Positions 12,568 through 44,697 of a stretch of DNA of 45,971 nucleotides are shown one piece after another. The notes under the pieces are model-generated. The model saw nothing but the letters and a program-made list of their open reading frames with translations, was not told the DNA's origin and searched no databases. The translations under genes were made by a program, and so were the position numbers. How positions within the stretch are numbered: position 1 is the first letter of the stretch; every line of letters starts with the position of its first letter. The DNA lies in the IMG/VR virus record IMGVR_UViG_3300005518_000008, positions 1 through 45,971 of that record, one strand, 5' to 3'. The DNA comes from a virus.

Positions 12568-12899
12568 TTCATCTCCCCAGATTGCTCAAGTGCTTCGCGC
12601 GCCCGATAGCAATCCTGCATGATCAATTGCTTGCGCGCCAGCGGTGACCCGACTGTGATCTGGAACGATGGCGGAACGCCGTTGCGTGGGTCCGCATAGG
12701 CCGCGAATGGCTGGAGCGCCGCCCGCAGCACCACGCTCTCCTTTGCCCGTTCGTCGGCAATGGCCAGCGCGCGGCGCTTGGCGGCCTGTAGCCGCTCGAT
12801 CTCGGCGAGAGCCCATCGCGCTTGGTGTGCGGCTGATTTCTCCCCGCGCTGTTCTAGCCCGATGGCCAGACCTTCAAGCTTGGCAAGCTGTTGGTCCAT
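12564..12899 (-). CDS. Phage coiled-coil protein, 111 aa
   Basis: Residues 1-60 form a continuous helix rich in A, E, R and Q (LAKLEGLAIGLEQRGEKSAA, ALAEIERLQAAKRRALAIAD), probably a coiled coil. The C-terminal part, with ITVGSPLARKQLIMQDCYRA, is a motif I recognise as recurring in small phage proteins of unknown function in early operons. Its stop overlaps the start of the 54-residue gene. A 14-base gap separates it from the gene upstream. Confidence 0.65.
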   Translation of the reverse strand: MDQQLAKLEGLAIGLEQRGEKSAAHQARWALAEIERLQAAKRRALAIADERAKESVVLRAALQPFAAYADPRNGVPPSFQITVGSPLARKQLIMQDCYRAREALEQSGEMK

Positions 12900-13942: not shown

Positions 13943-16828
13943 TCAGCGTGCCGTGAAGTTCTCAACCCGCTGCTCCCGCGTATTGTGCACCCCTTTCGGA
14001 ATGATCTGCTCGACAGCCACGGCGACGCCGGAGATGGCGGGATGATTCATATTCACCTCGATCGTGGTCACTTGTCCCGAAGCCAGATCGGTCCCGGCAC
14101 CGAGCGTGTTGCGCCGGCTGCTGTCGGCCACCACGTTGCGATCGCGTAGTTCCTTGAGGAACGCGGTGCGATTGACCCCGCGTTTGACCAGATACTTCCG
14201 CAGCTCCGACTCAAGAATCCAGAGACGCCCACTGTCCAGCTCGTAGCGCATCAGCAATCCCTGCTTCGGCATCATCCGGGGCTGAATCGTGTTGTGCGGG
14301 CGCCACGCCACCGGCATGACCAGCATGGCGTTGATGTTGGCGTTTATGAACTCGGAGAGGACGTCGGTTGAGCGTCGGGTGTTGGTGACGGATGGGTCAC
14401 CAGCTCGTGAAGCAAGCTGCTCAACAGCCCAATCCAGAATGCGTTGGACACTAAAGTCAAGAATACCAGCGTGACGAACAATAACTCCGGCAGCGACGAC
14501 GCTTGCGAGAGTGCGTACCCAAAAACGATGTTCATTGCGAAGACCGGTACGCTTCCAAATAGAATCAGTCCACTCCGGTAGAGCTTTCTTGACATAGGCC
14601 AGGGTCTCCGGTTGCAGCAGGACTTTCAGATAGGCATCGGCAGCAAAGCCGCTGTTGGCAGCCAGCTCGCGCTTCAGCTCGTCGCCTTTTTTCTCCATCG
14701 AGTCAGGAAAGGACGTGATAAACTCAAGGACACGAAAAGCAGGAGCATCAGTACCATCCAGGGAACCAAGAATATCAACAATAGAATTGTTACTCGCCAG
14801 GACAAGGATGGTCTGCCATTCCGCCTTGGAGTGTCTGAGCTGACCATCGACGGTGCCTCGCATTTTGTCGCGCCCGTTGGTGAACGCCAGGACGAACTTG
14901 CGCACCTCTTCGGGGTCGCGATTGTAGAGTTCATCGAACACACAGGGGATGTTGCCTAGCACTCCGAGCGTCAGCCCTTTCGCGACACGGGTGTCGTCGT
15001 CGGTGAGCTGCGTACCCTTCAGACGGCCCCACGCTGAGGCGACGGCTTCGAGGGCAGTTGTCTTGCCAGAGCCTGATTGATCACTGACAAGGCTGATAAT
15101 AGCTCCTCCTTCTCCTGCGGTGTGAAAGCGCATGAGAGGTGCTGCAAAAGCTGCAAGCAGAGCAAAGGACTGTGGCTCACATCCTCTAGTAAAGAGTGCG
15201 TTAGCAGCAGCTGACCAGCGATCAAGTGATCCCGTTCGGTTTGGTCCAAGGTACTGACTCCTGAGTTTGATCTCATCCGATCCCGCGATCGGCTGCACGC
15301 CGCTGGCAGTGTAGAGCTTGTCACCGTAAAGGAACGAAGCCTCCTGGTCTTTCCACCCGAACTGGTCGTAACGCATCTGCAGCCTGTTTGCCCTGTGCCA
15401 GTTGTCCATGGCTTCTCTCGTATATTTGCGGAACAGCTCGGGATCGTGGATCACTGCGCCGCGACCGGCCATCTCCGACATGCCCCCGGAGGAGAAAAAT
15501 GTGCGCGTGGACAACGAGATGTCCCGCATTTCCTCACGTGGCAGATGAAGCTTGAAGCATAAACTGAAGTCATCACTGGTTATTTCACCCGTCTGGATGC
15601 TGTCGAGGTAGATCGGCTGCGCGCTGATCGTCTCTTGGGTCTGGTTGCCTTTGTTCTCGCTAAGGAAGAAGAGGCCGCTGTGCGTGAGCGCGAAGCTTTC
15701 GGGGACGGAGGGGAAGCCGTTGACCCTTTCCAACGGCGTAACGGCGGATCCCACTTCAAATTGTTTATCTCTTTGTTGATTTCTGCCAAGTTGGATTGGC
15801 GACGAGATTGACCCTTTGTGCGAGCAACCTTCACACCCTTTCGGATTGATGTTCTCGAAGTGGGCGCAGGTCGTGGGGCCGAAGGTGCGGGCGCGTTCGA
15901 GTCGGGATTGAGTTTCCGCGTGGGAATAGGTTGGGTGTCCACCACTCCATTCGTGAGCAAGAATTTCACCGCGTTTACATGCTCCGACAACTGCGACACC
16001 TGCGTACCAAGCAGGTTCAGGAAGACACCCATGCGATCGGCGAAAGTCTGCAAGTTGTTTACATTGGTCAGCGATAATGTTCGCATCGCTGTCTTCGTCT
16101 CCATAAATGTTTCCGGCAGCGGCGAAAAGTGATGCGGGGGGTCTAAACAGCGGGCGCCCAGCGCCGTTCCTTCCTGCCACAGCAACTGGCACTTGCTGCA
16201 CTTCCACATCTTTGGCGGAAACAACATCTATAAACTCGCGAAGGGTGGTCGGGGCCTGGAGATCACCGGCTTCCACGAGCCGTCCGGCATCTTTTTTACG
16301 GTTATGTGTTCCGGGCGTACGTAGTATTGACGACGCATCAGCAGTGCGAACCTGGTCGACGTCCAGCCCTTCTCTAGCGCATAGACGTTTGAGCCGGAGG
16401 GCCACGGCTTTCCACGATACAAGGTCCACAGCCTCAGCCAGCGTCCAATACGCGTGTAGACCGTAACCCGAACTAACGTAGGTAGGATCGGGCAGGCCAA
16501 GTCGGCTGCAGAAAGATTCAACGGCCGCATGAGCGGCAGTGGCGTTAGAATAGACTGCTGTGTCGGGATGACTTTGCTGGGTGTCGCAGTCAATCCAGAA
16601 CGCGCGGACCGCCAGAACATTTTCCTGTTTCCTGCTTTCGTTTGTCTTGTACGATGCGCAAGCGTGGTACACCGTCTCGCCACGGGCGTCGGTAGTCGTA
16701 ATAAATTCGGCTAAGTCTTCGCAGCTCGAAAAGTGCTTGTTGTATTTCTTCGTCGGTGAGAAAACCGTTGCGCATTTGAGACCTTCAGCCGGCAGAATGT
16801 GCCGCAGGAACTCCAGGGCGCTGACCAT
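13943..16828 (-). CDS. Primase-helicase (RepA/AEP-like primase with DUF927-like helicase domain)
   Basis: A 961-residue replication protein. Residues 1-220 are an archaeo-eukaryotic/RepB-like primase: FWIDCDTQ with paired Asp near 77-79, the GYGLHAYW segment near 120 with the conserved His, and RTADASSILRTPGTHNRK near 160-175. A Cys cluster (CAHF...GCEGCSHKG, about 320-342) is a probable zinc site. The C-terminal half is a P-loop helicase: Walker A SDQSGSGKTT near 582 and an acidic FDELYN near 627. The start at 16828 gives the family-like beginning SALEFLRHILPAEG and overlaps the upstream HTH gene by 44 bases. It would prime and unwind DNA for the phage polymerase. Confidence 0.8.
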   Translation of the reverse strand: MVSALEFLRHILPAEGLKCATVFSPTKKYNKHFSSCEDLAEFITTTDARGETVYHACASYKTNESRKQENVLAVRAFWIDCDTQQSHPDTAVYSNATAAHAAVESFCSRLGLPDPTYVSSGYGLHAYWTLAEAVDLVSWKAVALRLKRLCAREGLDVDQVRTADASSILRTPGTHNRKKDAGRLVEAGDLQAPTTLREFIDVVSAKDVEVQQVPVAVAGRNGAGRPLFRPPASLFAAAGNIYGDEDSDANIIADQCKQLADFRRSHGCLPEPAWYAGVAVVGACKRGEILAHEWSGGHPTYSHAETQSRLERARTFGPTTCAHFENINPKGCEGCSHKGSISSPIQLGRNQQRDKQFEVGSAVTPLERVNGFPSVPESFALTHSGLFFLSENKGNQTQETISAQPIYLDSIQTGEITSDDFSLCFKLHLPREEMRDISLSTRTFFSSGGMSEMAGRGAVIHDPELFRKYTREAMDNWHRANRLQMRYDQFGWKDQEASFLYGDKLYTASGVQPIAGSDEIKLRSQYLGPNRTGSLDRWSAAANALFTRGCEPQSFALLAAFAAPLMRFHTAGEGGAIISLVSDQSGSGKTTALEAVASAWGRLKGTQLTDDDTRVAKGLTLGVLGNIPCVFDELYNRDPEEVRKFVLAFTNGRDKMRGTVDGQLRHSKAEWQTILVLASNNSIVDILGSLDGTDAPAFRVLEFITSFPDSMEKKGDELKRELAANSGFAADAYLKVLLQPETLAYVKKALPEWTDSIWKRTGLRNEHRFWVRTLASVVAAGVIVRHAGILDFSVQRILDWAVEQLASRAGDPSVTNTRRSTDVLSEFINANINAMLVMPVAWRPHNTIQPRMMPKQGLLMRYELDSGRLWILESELRKYLVKRGVNRTAFLKELRDRNVVADSSRRNTLGAGTDLASGQVTTIEVNMNHPAISGVAVAVEQIIPKGVHNTREQRVENFTAR

Positions 16829-24223: not shown

Positions 24224-24387
24224 CAGAACTTCTTGTTCTTCAGCCGCTCCTCGCGCTTGCGCTGCTCCGACAGGCCGATCGCTACCGCTTGCTTTCTTTT
24301 GGTGACCACCGGTCCGGTCTTGCTGCCGGAGTGCAGCTGGCCACGCTTGAACTCGCCCATCACTTTTCCGACTTTGTCTTTAGCCAT
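24223..24387 (-). CDS. DUF6496-type phage protein, 54 aa
   Basis: MAKDKVGKVMGEFKRGQLHS then GSKTGPVVTKRKQAVAIGLS is the conserved body of a very common small basic phage protein (DUF6496). The internal ATG (24387) rather than the upstream one is used because the family begins MAKDKVGK. The tail is basic (KREERLKNKKF), so it may bind DNA. Confidence 0.8.
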   Translation of the reverse strand: MAKDKVGKVMGEFKRGQLHSGSKTGPVVTKRKQAVAIGLSEQRKREERLKNKKF

Positions 24388-24388
24388 A

Positions 24389-24586
24389 TCAGTAGCCCTT
24401 TCCATAGTCGTAAATTGCCAGCAGTTCTTCGTTGGTCAGTGGCGGATCGAAGTCGTCAGTATCCACAACTTCCCGCTTGCGCGGATCGGCCAGCATCCGA
24501 TTAGACGGGTTCATTGAGTCGGTCCAGATTTCGTAGACCTCACCGCGCAGTTCGAAATCGGGACATAGAAGCCGCTCATCAGCCAT
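24389..24586 (-). CDS. Small acidic protein, 65 aa
   Basis: MADERLLCPDFELRGEVYEI opens a short, acidic protein (REVVDTDDFDPPLTNEELLA). The ATG lies in the end of the polymerase gene. No recognised family; it follows the polymerase and precedes the basic DUF6496 gene. Confidence 0.6.
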   Translation of the reverse strand: MADERLLCPDFELRGEVYEIWTDSMNPSNRMLADPRKREVVDTDDFDPPLTNEELLAIYDYGKGY

Positions 24587-29672: not shown

Positions 29673-29700
29673 TTGACACCCAAAACAAACCTATTATACT
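29673..29700 (+). promoter_or_regulatory. Rightward sigma70-type promoter
   Basis: A perfect TTGACA (29673-29678) and TATACT (29695-29700, five of six) with 16 bases between. Transcription would start near 29707 and reach the ATG at 29740, preceded by GAAAGGGG. This is the strongest promoter-like sequence seen and would serve the terminase-portal side. Confidence 0.65.
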
Positions 29701-30146: not shown

Positions 30147-30449
30147 ATGCCCGGCGCATCTGGCAAGTGGGATCCACCTTCTGACCAGCCCTTCCGTGGT
30201 GGTGGAGCGACCGGCTCCTGGGACGCCCCCTCCGAGCCTGCTCAAATCGAGACCCACCAACTTCAGTCTTCCAACCTGTCCTCTTACTCCTACGATCCCG
30301 ACAGCGAGACCCTCCGCATCACTTTTAAGTCCGGCCGGACCTACACCTACTCCTCTGTCCCACCCTCGGTGGCCGACGGTCTGGGAACTGCCTCTTCCCC
30401 TGGCCGCTACTTCAACGCTACAATCAGGAATCAGTACTCTTTCAAATAG
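30147..30449 (+). CDS. KTSC-domain protein, 100 aa
   Basis: After a disordered start (MPGASGKWDPPSDQPFRGGG), residues 40-98 match the KTSC domain (PF13619): SSNLSSYSYDPDSETLRITF, SGRTYTYSSVPPSVADGL, and SPGRYFNATIRNQYSFK. The domain, first noted at the ends of lysyl-tRNA synthetases, is also a common small phage protein of unknown function. Confidence 0.8.
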   Translation: MPGASGKWDPPSDQPFRGGGATGSWDAPSEPAQIETHQLQSSNLSSYSYDPDSETLRITFKSGRTYTYSSVPPSVADGLGTASSPGRYFNATIRNQYSFK

Positions 30450-33441: not shown

Positions 33442-35646
33442 ATGGCTGAAGACCTAGATGACGATCTGGACGAGGACGAAGAGGATCCCAAGATCTCCGC
33501 GCGCAAGGAGGACTTGTCCGGCAAAAAGCGGATCAAGGAGGATCTGCTCGACCTGTTCGCCGAGATTGACAAGGGGTTCCAGCAGCAGTGGGAGCGGTCT
33601 AATGGGCAGATGGACTACTGGGACATCTACAATTGCAAGCTCACGTCCAAGCAGTTCTACTCGGGTAACTCTAAGATATTCGTCCCCATCGTCCACAACG
33701 CCATCAACGCCCGCAAGACGCGTTTTACCAATCAGATTTTCCCGCAGTCCGGGCGTTATGTCGAGGTTACTTCGTCAGATGGTACGCAGCCTGACGCGCT
33801 GACTGCGCTGTTGGAGCACTATGTGCGCAGGGCGCAGCTGCGGACGAAGGTGATGCCGGCGCTGGTGCGCAACGGCGACGTCGAGGGGCAGTACAATCTC
33901 TATGTCTCCTGGTGCGAGCGCACGCGCAACGTGACGTGGCGCAGCAAGTCCTTGCCGCTCATGCAGGACGACAGCGGCGAGCATGTTCCAAACCCGGCTG
34001 CCGAGGAGGTGGAGGACATCGAGGAAGAGGAGATTGAGATCGCCCACCCCGAGGTGGAGGTGATCCCGGACTCCGATATCTTAGTTTTGCCGTCGACTGC
34101 CGACACGCTGGAAGAGGCGATCGCCTGCGGCGGGTCGGTGACGATCATCCGGCGCTGGGGTAAGGCCAAGATTCGGCAGATGGTCCGCGACGGGGTGATT
34201 CGCAAGGACGTTGCGGAGGAGCTGATCGAGCAGCTCTCGACCAAGGACCCTCCGGCTTATGTCAACGCAAAGGGGCACCATGTCGATGCAGCGGGTATCC
34301 AGGAGAAGACGGACAGCTCTCCCAGACATCTACTCGTCTATGAGACCTTCACCGAGCTTAAGATCCGGCGTGGCGAGCGACGAGTATGCCAGGCGTTTTA
34401 CGGTGGCGAGCAGAAAATTCTTGGGTGTCGACGTAACCCCATCTGGAGTGACCGCTTGCCTCTGCTTTCGGTGCCTGTCGAGAAGGTATCAGGAGCTTTC
34501 AAAGGCCAAAGCAAAGTACAGCCCTGTGCCGACCTCCAGTACGCCGCGAATGATGCGGTGAACGAAGCCTGGGACAGTGCTGCTTACGCATTGATGCCGG
34601 TGGTCATGACCGACCCGATGAAGAACCCGCGGGTGGGGTCGATGATCCTGTCGATGGCCGCGGTGTGGGAGACCTCGCCTGCGGACACCAAGATCCTGGA
34701 GTTCCCGCAGCTGTGGCAGCACGGGTTCGAGATGGTGGCGCAGTGTACCAGCGTGATTTCCCAGACCCTCAGTGTCTCTCCCGCGGCAATTACTTCCGGG
34801 GGGCATGGGCGCCTTGGTGGGGAAAAGCCTACTCAGGCAGAAGTGGCCCAGGAGCAGCAGGTCGATATTCTCTCGACGGCGGATGCGGTGACTGTGATCG
34901 AGGAGGGGATCCTGACTCCGATGCTGGCACTGTTTATCGAGCTGGACCACCAATATCGGGAAGAGGACTTGACTGTGCGCCAGTACGGCGAGATGGGCGT
35001 GCGGGCCAACATGGAGAAGATCCCGCCGATTCAGATGGACAAGAGGTTTGACTTCCGATGGTTTGGTGTCGAGCAAGCGCGATCGGCGCAGCAGATCCAG
35101 CAGCAGATCGCGGGGATGAACGTGATCCGCGGCATACCGCCGCAGCAGCTCAACGGCTACCAGATCAACCTGGTGCCGGTGATAACGCAGCTCGTAGAGA
35201 ACACCTTTGGGCCAAGGCTTGCACCGCTTATTTTTGTATCTCCAGAAGAACAAATGCCTGTTCCTGTCGACCAGGAGAATGCGCTCTTGATGTCTGGGTT
35301 TGAGGCGCCTACGCACCAGATGGACGACGACACGGCGCACATCCAGGGGCACCAGGCGGCGCTTCAGCAGATGGAGATGGCCGGTGAAAACAAAAACAAG
35401 AAGAAATTCCTCACACACATCTGGCGTCACGTCCAGCAAGCGCAGGCGAAGCCGCAAGCCGCGCTCGCGGCGCAGAACCCGATGCAAGGCGGTGAGCCGG
35501 GAGTACCTGGAGGCGCGGGTCCGGGTGTGGCAGGAACTCCGCGGATTGGTGCACAGCCTATGGGTCCAAGAACGCAAGGCCCTGCGGGGATGATCCACAA
35601 GGATCAGATGCAGGATCCAGCAGCGATGCCGCGGAAGATCGCGTAG
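33442..35646 (+). CDS. Portal protein (head-tail connector)
   Basis: A 734-residue protein. An acidic N-terminus (AEDLDDDLDEDEEDP) leads into a portal-like body: GQMDYWDIYNCKLTSKQFYS, KIFVPIVHNAINARKTRFTN, EVIPDSDILVLPS (the wing region), QCTSVISQTLSVSPAAITSG, and a Gln-rich C-terminus (QQIQQQIAGMNVIRGIPPQQ) ending in a Pro/Gly tail. Size and place right after the terminase fit a short-tailed phage portal, the dodecameric ring through which DNA passes. ATG 33442 is preferred over GTGs just upstream. Confidence 0.85.
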   Translation: MAEDLDDDLDEDEEDPKISARKEDLSGKKRIKEDLLDLFAEIDKGFQQQWERSNGQMDYWDIYNCKLTSKQFYSGNSKIFVPIVHNAINARKTRFTNQIFPQSGRYVEVTSSDGTQPDALTALLEHYVRRAQLRTKVMPALVRNGDVEGQYNLYVSWCERTRNVTWRSKSLPLMQDDSGEHVPNPAAEEVEDIEEEEIEIAHPEVEVIPDSDILVLPSTADTLEEAIACGGSVTIIRRWGKAKIRQMVRDGVIRKDVAEELIEQLSTKDPPAYVNAKGHHVDAAGIQEKTDSSPRHLLVYETFTELKIRRGERRVCQAFYGGEQKILGCRRNPIWSDRLPLLSVPVEKVSGAFKGQSKVQPCADLQYAANDAVNEAWDSAAYALMPVVMTDPMKNPRVGSMILSMAAVWETSPADTKILEFPQLWQHGFEMVAQCTSVISQTLSVSPAAITSGGHGRLGGEKPTQAEVAQEQQVDILSTADAVTVIEEGILTPMLALFIELDHQYREEDLTVRQYGEMGVRANMEKIPPIQMDKRFDFRWFGVEQARSAQQIQQQIAGMNVIRGIPPQQLNGYQINLVPVITQLVENTFGPRLAPLIFVSPEEQMPVPVDQENALLMSGFEAPTHQMDDDTAHIQGHQAALQQMEMAGENKNKKKFLTHIWRHVQQAQAKPQAALAAQNPMQGGEPGVPGGAGPGVAGTPRIGAQPMGPRTQGPAGMIHKDQMQDPAAMPRKIA

Positions 35647-36767
35647 TGGGGACCCTTGCTTTCCTTGTCACGATTGCTTTTGTCTCCCCGTTTCCTGATG
35701 GCGCTCTTGCACCACGTTGGGTGGTGCTGTCGATCGCGGTGCCCGGACTGCTACTATGTCTTCCTCGGCTCCCTCGTCTGTGTTTTGGGCATTGGCTGTT
35801 TGGTGCTTTTTGGTGTGTTTGTGGGCTATCCATCCTGTGGACGCCCGACGTCTTCGATGGTCTCTATATTTATTGGGGATTCACTCTGTTTGGCGGGTTG
35901 TTGCTGACCGCACCGAGCGATTTGCGGCCTATTTTCATTGGTGCCGGCTGCGCGCTGGCAATCAACAGCGTGTTTGTGCTGCTCCAGGTCTTGGGCTACG
36001 AACCGGTGACGCAGGCGGTGCCGCCCGCGGGGCTGTTTTTCAACAAAAATGTTGGCGCTGAGGCGACAGCTCTGGTTATAGTGGGGTTGCTCTGCTCTCG
36101 TCCAGCAGAGGTGCGCGGACCTGGATGGAGAGGGATGCTGCTTGCAGGTGCCGGCAGCGTCCCTCTTCTCGTTCCGCCACACAGTCGAGGGGCAATTCTT
36201 GCATTTTGCGTTGCTGTGACCGGCTGGCTCTGGTCAAAACACCGCTTTATTGGGATTTTGGTTGCAATCCTCGCTGTAGGTCTCCTTTCAAGACTTGCTT
36301 TCGACATTTCGCGCTGGGAAAGCTCGTCTTCCAGGCTTGCTTTCTGGGTGAACGCACTGGGAACGTCCAATTTTTGGGGGCACGGGCTCGGTTCGTTCCG
36401 CTGGACCTATCCATGGTTCGAATATGCCCACAACGATCTGATTCAGCTGCTGTTTGAGGTGGGCGTGCCCGGCTTGTTGCTGTTTTGCCTATTTCTCGGT
36501 TACTGTTTGCGTCATGGTGCGCTGTCGGAGCGACTCGTGCTGACGGCATTCATCGTGGAGGGGTTCTTTGGCTTCCCGCTCTACAGCCCAGTCACCACTT
36601 TCCTTGTGGCTTGTACCGCAGGTAGCGTTCTGCGTCGTCGGTGTGCTGTACGCGTTCCTCTCGATCGGGGCGAACGTCCAAGCGATGCGTGCTTCCTGGA
36701 TACGCGATCAGCAGAGCGCGCAGACGCTTATTTTCTACCAGCACGCAGGCGCTCTTTTTCCCTTTAA
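35646..36767 (+). CDS. O-antigen ligase/polymerase-like membrane protein, probably frameshifted
   Basis: A 373-residue protein starting with GTG inside the portal stop. About ten hydrophobic spans are visible (GTLAFLVTIAFVSPF, VVLSIAVPGLLLCL, IYWGFTLFGGLLLTA, and so on). The motif YAHNDLIQLLFEVGVPGLLL near 260-280 and the earlier PPHSRGAILAF near 177 are hallmarks of the O-antigen ligase (Wzy_C/WaaL) family, which joins or polymerises surface sugar chains at the periplasmic face. After about residue 325 (SPVTTFLVACTAG) the frame becomes charged, while the next frame (36568-36930) continues with a membrane span, so the true protein is probably split by a frameshift. Such a gene in a phage suggests serotype change. 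Confidence 0.75.
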   Translation: MGTLAFLVTIAFVSPFPDGALAPRWVVLSIAVPGLLLCLPRLPRLCFGHWLFGAFWCVCGLSILWTPDVFDGLYIYWGFTLFGGLLLTAPSDLRPIFIGAGCALAINSVFVLLQVLGYEPVTQAVPPAGLFFNKNVGAEATALVIVGLLCSRPAEVRGPGWRGMLLAGAGSVPLLVPPHSRGAILAFCVAVTGWLWSKHRFIGILVAILAVGLLSRLAFDISRWESSSSRLAFWVNALGTSNFWGHGLGSFRWTYPWFEYAHNDLIQLLFEVGVPGLLLFCLFLGYCLRHGALSERLVLTAFIVEGFFGFPLYSPVTTFLVACTAGSVLRRRCAVRVPLDRGERPSDACFLDTRSAERADAYFLPARRRSFSL

Positions 36768-42451: not shown

Positions 42452-42481
42452 TTGACTATCCGCATAACTAAGAGCTAAACT
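42452..42481 (+). promoter_or_regulatory. Probable promoter for the scaffold-capsid genes
   Basis: TTGACT (42452-42457) and TAAACT (42476-42481) with an 18-base spacer. Transcription would begin near 42488, at the edge of the three-hairpin leader. The -10 matches four of six. Together with the 119-base gap (42452-42570) it suggests separate high expression of the capsid genes. Confidence 0.5.
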
Positions 42482-42488
42482 GAAACAT

Positions 42489-42560
42489 CGACTTGTGCCC
42501 GTAAGGCACTGATCCGACTGGCGACCGTAAGCCGCCTTCGACTAGTGGCCGTAAGTCACG
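42489..42560 (+). ncRNA. Three tandem hairpins with CGTAA loops in the capsid leader RNA
   Basis: Each unit begins CGACT (42489, 42515, 42539; spacing 26 and 24) and then forms a stem capped by the same loop CGTAA. Stem 1 is GTGCC/GGCAC (42495-42509). Stem 2 is GGCG...CGCC with an A/C mismatch and a closing C-G pair (42520-42536). Stem 3 is GTGGC/GTCAC with one G-U pair (42545-42559). The stem sequences differ while pairing is kept, which points to selection on RNA structure. The last hairpin lies just upstream of the GGAGAGAG ribosome site of the scaffold gene, so binding of a protein here could control capsid synthesis. Confidence 0.6.
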
Positions 42561-42570
42561 GAGAGAGCAG

Positions 42571-43332
42571 ATGGCGATCGGAGACGAAGATGAAGTCCAG
42601 CAACCCGGCGCAGAGGAAGTCAGCACCTCCAGTGAAGGAACTGAGCGGCCGGAAGGTGGTGACGGGCAAGAAGACCCCGAGCTTTCCGCCGACGACGCTG
42701 ACGACCCAACCGACGATGGGGAGCCCGAAGGGCAAGAAGTAGACGAACCAGTCGAACGCCCGACCCGAGGATCGGCTCGTTTTCAGCGGCTGGCGAACGA
42801 AACGAAGGAGGCTAGAGAGCGCGCCGAGCGCGCCGAGCGTGAAGTCCAGGAGCTTCGGAGAGCACAGCTCGCACGCGACCATGTGCTGAGCGAGCGCGAA
42901 GAGGCCGAACGACTTGCGCTGATGACGCCGGAGGAGAGAGCAAACCACCGGATCACGAAATTTGAACGCGAAGCACTCCAACGGGAGCAGCAACGCGAGT
43001 TTAGGCTGCAAAACGAGGTGGATCGAGCGAAGTTCGAGGCCAAGGCCACGCTGAACCCGGTCTACGCAAAGTACCAGGACGAAGTCGAGGAGCGATTTCA
43101 GTCTCTGGCGAGTAAGGGACAGGCGACCGAGCGCGAGGTGATCTTGAAGTTCATTCTGGGCGAGCGAGCCCTCAGCGGCGCGGCGGCTTCGACCCGGAAG
43201 GCTCAGGTTGCCGGCAAGAAGCGGGTCGAGGCACAGCGGGTTTCAAACGGTAGCGCCAAGGGCGATACCAAGTCGCAACGCGGGAAGACCGGGTCGACCC
43301 CGGAGGAGAGACTCAAAGGAGTCTTCATCTAA
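42571..43332 (+). CDS. Capsid scaffold / assembly protein
   Basis: A 253-residue, extremely charged protein. The acidic disordered start (EDEVQQPGAEEVSTSSEGTE) is followed by a long coiled coil (residues about 75-170: NETKEARERAERAEREVQEL, EREEAERLALMTPEERANHR) and a basic C-terminal tail (RKAQVAGKKRVEAQR). This, and its position right before the major capsid gene, is the hallmark of scaffold proteins, which shape the procapsid and leave before packaging. Strong ribosome site. Confidence 0.8.
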   Translation: MAIGDEDEVQQPGAEEVSTSSEGTERPEGGDGQEDPELSADDADDPTDDGEPEGQEVDEPVERPTRGSARFQRLANETKEARERAERAEREVQELRRAQLARDHVLSEREEAERLALMTPEERANHRITKFEREALQREQQREFRLQNEVDRAKFEAKATLNPVYAKYQDEVEERFQSLASKGQATEREVILKFILGERALSGAAASTRKAQVAGKKRVEAQRVSNGSAKGDTKSQRGKTGSTPEERLKGVFI

Positions 43333-43347
43333 CGGAGAGGGGCTACA

Positions 43348-44697
43348 ATGCCGACCAATACCGCTTCAAATTTCTCTTCCGACATCGTAGCCTATATCGC
43401 GGACAAGACGCTTCCGCTCACCCGCAAGCAGTTGGTGGCCTATCAGTTCGGAGATCCCCTCCGGCTCCCGAAGGGACGTGGCACCACCTACACGGCGACT
43501 CGCTATTTGCGCGTCCCGCTCCCCTTCGCGCCTCTGTCCGAGGGTGTCCCGCCGATCGGCGAGACCATGAGCATCAACCAGGTCTCGGCAACCGCCCAGC
43601 AGTGGGGTGACAAGATCACCCTCACCGACGTGGCGGAGATGACAATCTATCATCCCCTTTTTCAAAAAGCGACGGAGCTGGTAGGCCTGCAAGTCGCTGA
43701 GACGCTTGAGAGAAACACCTTCAACACGCTCAACTCCGGTACTCAGATCAATTACGTCAACAGCCGTGGCTCGCGCGCTTCGCTGGCTATCGGTGACGTG
43801 CTCAATCCGTTCGAGATCCAGCGCGCCTACTCCATGCTGTTCAACCTCGGCGCTCCGCGCTACATGGGCGACGAGATGACCGACACCAAGCTGTCGGCGG
43901 ACGCGGGCGGCGCCAAGGCGTCGAACAACCCCCGGCAGATGCCACACTACACCTCGATCATCCACCCGTTCGTGGCGGCTGATCTGCGGCAGAACAGCCA
44001 GGTGCAGACGGCCTGGTCCTACAGCGATATCAACCGGATCTACAATTACGAGGCCGGCGAGTTCAACGGCATCCGGTTCTGCGAATCGAACATGGTCCCG
44101 TTCTGGACCGGCATCGCGCAGGTGAATGGCACCGCGGGCACCGCGGGCTCGTTGGCGACCGGCACCTACTACATCCAAGTGACCGGCTCCGACACCCAGA
44201 ACCAGTTCGAGAGCCAGGTCTACCAGATCAGCGCATCCATGTCGGTGACCGGCCCGAACGGCTCGATCGCGGTCACGGTGCCGTCGACCGCCGGCTACAC
44301 CTACAACGTCTACGTCTCGACGTCGTCCAGCATGGCGTCGTCCTCGCTTGGTCTGACGACGTCGGGCCCAACCACTGGCCCGTTCCAGGGGCAGGCGACC
44401 CAGATCGCGGCGGGATCCAGCATCGTGATCACCGGGCTCGGTACTGCGCAGCAGCCGCCGGCCGCGCCGGCCACCGGGCTGACGGTCTACCCGACCTACA
44501 TCATCGGTCGTGGCGCCTATGGGCAGGTGATGCTCGACGAGGTGAGCTTCACCTACCTGACGGATGCCGACAAGTCTGATCCGCTCAACCAACTCCGGGT
44601 TGTAGGTTGGAAATGTTTCTACGGGACACTCATCGAGAATCAAAATTTCTTTATGAGAATAGAGAGCGTTAGCGCTTTCTCAGCTACCTTTGGGTAA
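43348..44697 (+). CDS. Major capsid protein, N4-gp56 family, with Ig-like insertion
   Basis: A 449-residue protein. The opening (SDIVAYIADKTLPLTRKQLV), the segment TATRYLRVPLPFAPLSEG, VSATAQQWGDKITLTDVAEM and YTSIIHPFVAADLRQNSQ, and the final IIGRGAYGQVMLDEVSFTYL are typical of the N4-gp56 family of HK97-fold capsid proteins. Between about residues 258 and 378, a Thr/Ser/Gly-rich stretch (TGTYYIQVTGSD, SIAVTVPSTAGYTYNVYVST) looks like an inserted immunoglobulin-like domain, probably exposed on the capsid surface. Built on the scaffold encoded just upstream. Confidence 0.9.
   Translation: MPTNTASNFSSDIVAYIADKTLPLTRKQLVAYQFGDPLRLPKGRGTTYTATRYLRVPLPFAPLSEGVPPIGETMSINQVSATAQQWGDKITLTDVAEMTIYHPLFQKATELVGLQVAETLERNTFNTLNSGTQINYVNSRGSRASLAIGDVLNPFEIQRAYSMLFNLGAPRYMGDEMTDTKLSADAGGAKASNNPRQMPHYTSIIHPFVAADLRQNSQVQTAWSYSDINRIYNYEAGEFNGIRFCESNMVPFWTGIAQVNGTAGTAGSLATGTYYIQVTGSDTQNQFESQVYQISASMSVTGPNGSIAVTVPSTAGYTYNVYVSTSSSMASSSLGLTTSGPTTGPFQGQATQIAAGSSIVITGLGTAQQPPAAPATGLTVYPTYIIGRGAYGQVMLDEVSFTYLTDADKSDPLNQLRVVGWKCFYGTLIENQNFFMRIESVSAFSATFG

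Follow-up and report, generated by a model that had tools for sequence, protein, structure and literature searches.

CGNNA-loop hairpins before capsid-operon genes and non-coding RNAs of phages: an apparently undescribed RNA motif family

The boxB hairpin of phage lambda has a GNRNA loop, lies near boxA and is associated with the phage N protein. In phage T4, C(UUCG)G intercistronic hairpins place one loop on many differing stems across the phage transcripts. The CRISPR-repeat hairpin of Cas6f (Csy4) consists of a 5-bp stem and a 5-nt loop and adjoins the RNA that it delimits. The MS2-type coat-protein operator is a single hairpin in an RNA phage genome and contains the start codon. HK022 put RNA is a single fold of ~70 nt with two long stem-loops and a triplex, and it binds the zinc-binding domain of the RNA polymerase beta' subunit (PMC9378689). 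Control signals of late operons are hardly known beyond a few model phages, and leader RNAs of DNA-phage capsid operons even less.

The DNA described here, referred to as the window, is an entire record of 45,971 bases from an uncultivated phage whose closest named relatives are ~28% identical in the capsid. Its portal and terminase match head-and-packaging PHROGs. A sequence-only reading of the window had described three tandem CGTAA-loop hairpins beginning with CGACT in the capsid-operon leader. These are confirmed, with all loops exactly CGTAA and starts at 42489, 42515 and 42539. The features of the leader and of the two genes behind it, with the scores of the covariance model R1, are as follows.

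42452-42481, plus strand: promoter-like pair TTGACT-N18-TAAACT (TTGACT 42452-42457, TAAACT 42476-42481, 18-nt spacer)
42489-42513, plus strand: unit 1, CGACTT-GTGCC-CGTAA-GGCAC, stem 42495-42499 / 42505-42509; R1 33.8 bits, E 3.1e-7
42515-42539, plus strand: unit 2, CGACTG-GCGAC-CGTAA-GCCGC, stem 42521-42525 / 42531-42535; R1 31.1 bits, E 1.7e-6 (21.1 bits when the alignment end differs)
42539-42563, plus strand: unit 3, CGACTA-GTGGC-CGTAA-GTCAC, stem 42545-42549 / 42555-42559; R1 28.3 bits, E 1.0e-5
42560-42565, plus strand: Shine-Dalgarno sequence GGAGAG, adjoining the 3' arm of the third unit
42571-43332, plus strand: scaffold-like ORF of 253 aa, acidic at the N-terminus and charged and coiled-coil-like in its middle part, followed directly by the major capsid gene
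43348-44697, plus strand: major capsid protein of 449 aa (phrog_1357; Pfam Phage_capsid_4)

The three units, of 25 nt each, occupy 42489-42563 between the promoter and the Shine-Dalgarno (SD) sequence of the scaffold-like gene, whose ATG start codon is at 42571, and the expected transcription start (~42488) adjoins unit 1. All positions of the unit 1 hairpin GTGCC-CGTAA-GGCAC are paired. The stem of unit 2 has a single A.C mismatch at the second pair from the loop, with a sixth pair possible, and that of unit 3 a single G.U at the same position, which is the weaker type of last units. Three of the four copies of CCGTAAG in the 46-kb window are inside the leader units. The scaffold-like ORF is preceded by lysis-like genes; it has no match in PHROG or Pfam, and homologues are present in the records of 12 of 12 relatives. 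In a distant relative the gene order is terminase, portal, scaffold-like ORF and capsid, and likewise in P22.

Elsewhere in the window, a weak R1 match (16.1 bits, E 0.029, above the E <= 0.01 level) lies between two ORFs at 12775-12799. The sole other strict TTGAC-N16..19-TANNNT on the plus strand occurs at 29673-29700, upstream of a rightward operon from 29740, and this promoter-like site has no R1 hairpin-unit match. The packaging operon is headed by a KTSC-domain protein (30147-30449; E 8e-22), which is present in 11 of 12 relatives; it was considered as a partner of the units and set aside, as nothing ties the protein to the RNA. Just behind the portal gene, an ORF at 35646-36767 contains a Wzy_C (O-antigen ligase) domain (33.8 bits against a cut-off of 31.7), which is unusual for a structural operon.

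The folding energy of the window leader is no better than that of shuffles (z = 0.32), and units 2 and 3 have a low probability within longer predicted transcripts. Since the folding energy is unremarkable, the case rests on comparison of sequences, which demonstrates the structure, strand, conservation, placement and range of contexts of the unit. The consensus consists of a CGANU flank, a 5-bp stem of free sequence and a CGNNA pentaloop (model R1). Covariation was assessed on 73 distinct units, chosen by the pattern CGA[CG]T-N6-CGNNA with no pairing required. In these units 81.9% of the cells pair as against 59.2% (sd 1.7) with the arms shuffled, double changes number 85 as against 27, and the covariation is 0.600 as against 0.214, a value reached by 0 of 500 shuffles. 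The pairing signal is destroyed when the partner is slid by 1-3 columns. Kinship among the units inflates the shuffle tests; given the slide control and the size of the effect, however, little doubt about the covariation is left. The preserved pairing of dissimilar stems, as proposed earlier for the window, is therefore upheld across the set, although units 2 and 3 are themselves imperfectly paired.

A second test, run on 66 leaders with a simple base shuffle as control, demanded only a hairpin of 5 bp and 5 nt. It gives 117 such hairpins as against a mean of 42 in base-shuffled leaders, and 62 of the 117 have the CGTAA loop. All 55 fully paired hairpins that are preceded by CGA[CG]T carry a CGNNA loop; in the hairpins with the common loops (n = 83) the flank reads C (77), G (76), A (68), N and T (68). 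As the loop is found from the flank and the flank from the loop, the two are conserved independently. The sequences of the stem arms vary even inside one leader. Among stems with one irregular pair, G.U outnumbers A.C by 24 to 7 (p = 0.003), or by 14 to 4 (p = 0.03) when last units are set aside, as expected if the RNA of the coding strand folds. The hairpins thus constitute a well-supported and apparently undescribed RNA motif family with a putative function.

The placement of the units is equally regular. Of 41 leaders, 27 have the pattern TTGAC-N16..19-TANNNT within the 80 nt that precede unit 1, as against 0 of 861 overlapping control windows further upstream. The TTGACT/TAAACT pair, taken by the sequence-only reading to start the RNA at unit 1, is part of the module. 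The distance from the -10 element to unit 1 is 7-41 nt (median 13), and in several leaders, that of the window included, the transcription start is predicted within a few bases of the first unit. Units follow each other mostly at 23-27 nt and the last loop precedes the start codon by a median of 19 nt (IQR 18-22; 51 leaders), these spacing statistics leaving out ~20 loci (automatic start choice), in several of which units are visible by eye.

First and last units differ in strength. Perfect Watson-Crick stems are present in 23 of 43 first units as against 10 of 44 last units (p = 0.004), and the predicted stability has a median of -5.0 kcal/mol in last units as against -7.5 kcal/mol in first units. 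Many of the last, SD-adjacent units have G.U or A.C as the second pair from the loop, or a bulge beside this pair, and the single SD-adjacent units of L027, L029, L038 and L052 are of this irregular type. The weaker SD-proximal units speak for an interaction with translation initiation, which may be either tolerance or control.

Within the family of the window, the unit is widespread. A capsid search of IMG/VR yielded 80 loci, and nearly all those with enough upstream sequence have 1-3 units before the homologous scaffold-like ORF. About 50 distinct relatives carry the 1-3 units at the same place, ahead of the scaffold-like gene, and units before a scaffold-like ORF are also present in two MAG-bin contigs (67% capsid identity). 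When R1 was run on the whole records of 23 relatives (E < 0.01), matches were obtained at the capsid-operon leader only, save one at 14890 in G015 (E 0.003). The motif persists in L132, where capsid identity is 47%, and is missing from L133, where it is 37%. R1 finds nothing at E <= 1 in P22, in Bacillus phage Pascal or in two freshwater phages, and gene 8 of P22 begins 13 nt after gene 1, with no leader in front. The refuting outcome named in the sequence-only reading, a lack of covariation or of conservation upstream of capsid genes, was looked for and did not occur: both covariation and conservation in scaffold/capsid leaders were found.

Pattern scans were also made over all IMG/VR contigs, without use of the capsid gene. 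The strict tandem pattern returned 24 loci, of which 20 have scaffold and capsid downstream and one is cut off but alike; the matches in L089, L097 and L100 were dropped as low-complexity repeats. With a looser tandem pattern, an operon of the window type is downstream in 71 of 92 loci. In L234, two units are located ~150 nt before a distant phrog_1357 capsid.

Other genes are also found behind the unit. The scans for single units demanded GGAG after the unit, so that closeness to the SD is not independent evidence in them, whereas the identity of the gene is; well-paired units make up 26 of 64 matches with the CGTAA loop and 7 of 31 with the CGTTA loop. Single units lie directly before scaffold-like ORFs that are followed by phrog_14242 capsids (L275, L288, L331/L341), ahead of a 59-aa ORF and a phrog_3437 capsid (L339) and ahead of a DNA polymerase gene (L321). 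A few of the remaining single matches (L285, L296, L300, L301, L308, L349) may be due to chance. Three scaffold lineages have no detectable sequence likeness to the scaffold of the window.

A different setting is provided by phage non-coding RNAs. Five units share a 1.2-kb non-coding region of an 89-kb phage (L235) with Proteo-phage-1 RNA and tRNA-Tyr. In the cultured, P2-like Burkholderia phage Mica, two units, both strong (33.7 and 29.8 bits), lie within a non-coding region which ends with a tRNA-like gene; the Mica units occupy 24298-24322 and 24435-24459. The RNAs concerned are located as follows.

L257 (Burkholderia phage Mica) 24298-24806, L235 7840-8914, L267 7600-8400: regions of non-coding RNA c
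L250 (Stenotrophomonas phage Piffle) 1980-2060, L251 (Salmonella virus PAT1) 1500-1610: non-coding RNA c
L235 8369-8490, L257 24435-24550, L267 7768-7890: second RNA, d, with a long closing stem ..CTCACG...CGTGAG..
L235 8590-8672, L267 7600-7679: Proteo-phage-1 RNA (RF03044), in the same non-coding operons as units

RNA c is conserved and structured, with the core GTCTGGATG...TTCAAGACGGACC (also given as GTCTGGATG..TTCAAGACGG(A)CC..AAATGTCC), and recurs in tRNA/non-coding regions of unrelated phages; no part of it reaches the Rfam gathering score. In 4 of 4 distinct unit-bearing cases (Mica, L235, L267, L264/L270) the unit precedes the closing stem of c by exactly 1 nt, and in Mica, L235 and L267 a unit also precedes the stem of d, which lies beside c, by 0-1 nt. 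Carriers of c without the unit are L263, L266, L268, L269 and the examined Stenotrophomonas, Xanthomonas, Salmonella and Klebsiella phages (Pokken, Piffle, RiverRider and PAT1 named). The unit therefore recurs before assembly genes of at least three capsid families, before non-coding RNAs and before a tRNA. Feedback control specific to scaffold or capsid synthesis and RNA packaging had both been suggested as its role; neither is supported as the general function, the unit being also placed 0-1 nt before non-coding RNAs and ahead of a DNA polymerase gene.

As regards the partner of the unit, all ORFs of the window and 12 relatives were compared with those of Mica, the 89-kb phage (L235) and the phage of L234. 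Only tail-fibre-type matches are common, other proteins being matched in just one or two relatives; in this comparison neither a nuclease nor an N-type protein is common to all unit carriers. Since a phage protein binding the units should be common to the carriers, and none is except the tail-fibre type, the comparison points to a host factor, or to the host polymerase or ribosome, as the reader of the unit. Caution is appropriate here, as the comparison could overlook a phage protein that is small and evolves fast, and as the phages could use different proteins. The unit may be a binding platform, more likely for a host factor than for the scaffold protein, and its recurrence ahead of non-coding RNAs as well as of assembly genes from at least three capsid families suggests a common host reader. 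The tandem pattern is present in 0 of 398 Pseudomonadota genomes, where strict filters may lose matches, and a bacterial origin of the unit was rejected on this basis; 3 of the 398 contain a strong single R1 match. One of these three (29.8 bits) is found in an intergenic-looking position at 1501-1525 of L256, a contig of a Pseudomonadota chromosome, and is possibly prophage or chance.

The motif probably marks, protects or controls RNAs that the phage needs in large amounts. How this might be accomplished can be outlined tentatively: the unit may be a modular 5' hairpin, read by a host factor, through which the 5' boundary of abundant phage RNAs is set or shielded and, at the SD, translation is modulated. 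In the family of the window, 1-3 copies would span the leader of the scaffold-capsid transcript, from its 5' end or nearby as far as the SD, and in other phages single copies would precede other SDs or non-coding RNAs. A host RNA-binding factor would recognize the conserved flank and loop, and in its bound state the hairpin would fix or protect the 5' boundary of the downstream RNA, either against 5'-end-dependent decay or as a boundary left after processing of a longer transcript. At the SD, the weaker stem of the last hairpin would keep initiation possible and perhaps adjustable. We infer the existence of the factor, the protective action and any influence on expression. Such a boundary hairpin would explain the proximity to promoters, the way in which units abut the SD or a non-coding RNA stem, the variable copy number and the mixed contexts, and the RNAs downstream (capsid operons of three families, non-coding RNAs, a tRNA) are expected to be abundant. 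However, tandem copies are only loosely explained, as simple protection needs none; protection by 5' hairpins in general needs no conserved loop, so that the loop calls for a reader, and none was found; the DNA polymerase message (L321) is not expected among the most abundant; and, the unit being uncommon in bacterial chromosomes, a host reader would need another natural target. It is also possible, if speculative, that the unit is a general RNA "address tag" of unrelated phages, in which CGANU and CGNNA before capsid-operon messages and non-coding RNAs are read by a host RNA-binding protein, RNA polymerase or the ribosome.

The closeness of the units to promoters and the exposure of untranslated RNA operons to Rho would likewise suit antitermination of the put type, in which nascent hairpins bind host RNA polymerase and termination is resisted along the capsid or non-coding RNA operon; no common phage protein is needed, as HK022 put acts by RNA alone (PMC9378689). 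Put, however, has ~70 nt and two long stem-loops (PMC9378689), whereas the units are 5-bp hairpins, sometimes just one. Moreover, antitermination does not require the 0-1 nt spacing to non-coding RNAs or the fixed SD spacing, and repeats within one non-coding RNA operon would be redundant, which leaves it an unlikely explanation. The fixed distance at which the last hairpin touches the SD, together with its weaker stem and the irregular second pair from the loop as a possible recognition feature, would fit a translational operator, where a protein (scaffold, capsid or other) on the SD-proximal hairpin blocks the ribosome and upstream copies are cooperative. Scaffold feedback of this kind would agree with the irregular single units of L027, L029, L038 and L052 and with the recurrence of the unit before scaffold-like genes of a second capsid family (L275, L288, L331). 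The scaffolding protein of P22 is subject to post-transcriptional autoregulation, which counts in the same direction, but the leader element is absent from P22, where no leader stands before gene 8 and the genome gives no R1 match (E <= 1). The operator appears doubtful as well, given that scaffold feedback is senseless before non-coding RNAs and the DNA polymerase gene and that the three scaffold lineages lack detectable likeness to that of the window. Where successive non-coding RNAs each have one unit immediately 5' of them (L235, L267, Mica), a host or other nuclease might recognize the hairpin, whose size is that of the Cas6f hairpin, and cut beside it to release an RNA with a defined 5' end. 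Yet 2-3 copies before one mRNA are unnecessary for cutting, the capsid-leader units lie at or near the transcription start with little to remove, and no nuclease is common to the carriers; such a site is rather improbable. Inverted repeats with conserved centres, and in tandem, can also be DNA sites, such as the operator of a DNA-binding protein, a single-stranded replication or packaging site or a spreading REP-like element. Against this, G.U exceeds A.C on one strand, arm sequences differ even in one leader, the units keep a constant position and orientation with respect to promoter and SD, and there is usually one place per genome, so that a signal at the DNA level is very improbable.

The consensus, the covariance model and a cultured carrier (Mica) make the element directly testable. 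It would aid the annotation of uncultivated phages, namely of scaffold gene starts and late promoters, and could supply a portable RNA part.

With respect to known systems, the unit is in kind a cis-acting phage leader RNA whose family appears undescribed. To our knowledge, no described family is used across both mRNA and non-coding RNA. In agreement with the earlier statement that no familiar riboswitch or phage RNA is matched, no Rfam 15 family matches the window at the gathering threshold, and at E <= 10 there are just two snoRNA chance matches outside the units; a riboswitch or known RNA was rejected for lack of an Rfam match. A literature search that took in few subscription papers found no description of the motif. 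Proteo-phage-1 RNA shares the same operons in L235 and L267 but is a separate 82-nt structure without the unit. HK022 putL/putR are similar as short structured RNAs just downstream of phage promoters that act in cis without a phage protein; they belong, however, to early operons and have two long stem-loops and no CGNNA units, whereas here 5-bp hairpins occur in 1-3 copies. The MS2-type operator likewise sets a conserved-loop hairpin with an irregular pair next to the ribosome-binding site of an assembly gene, but the units are found in DNA phages, in 1-3 copies upstream of the SD and also before non-coding RNAs, with the start codon outside the hairpin (median 19 nt). The Cas6f hairpin differs by a fixed stem sequence, a GUAUA loop, spacers and cas genes, none of which are features of the unit arrays; indeed, neighbouring stems differ and follow each other mostly at 23-27 nt without spacers, in contrast to CRISPR repeats. 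Lambda nut boxB resembles the units as a phage-leader hairpin with a pentaloop on a 5-bp stem, but the loop of the units is CGNNA (55/55) rather than GNRNA, and the units are in tandem and have the CGANU flank. Finally, the T4 C(UUCG)G hairpins have a hyperstable tetraloop and no conserved 5' flank, whereas the units combine a pentaloop and a flank in tandem arrays at one operon.
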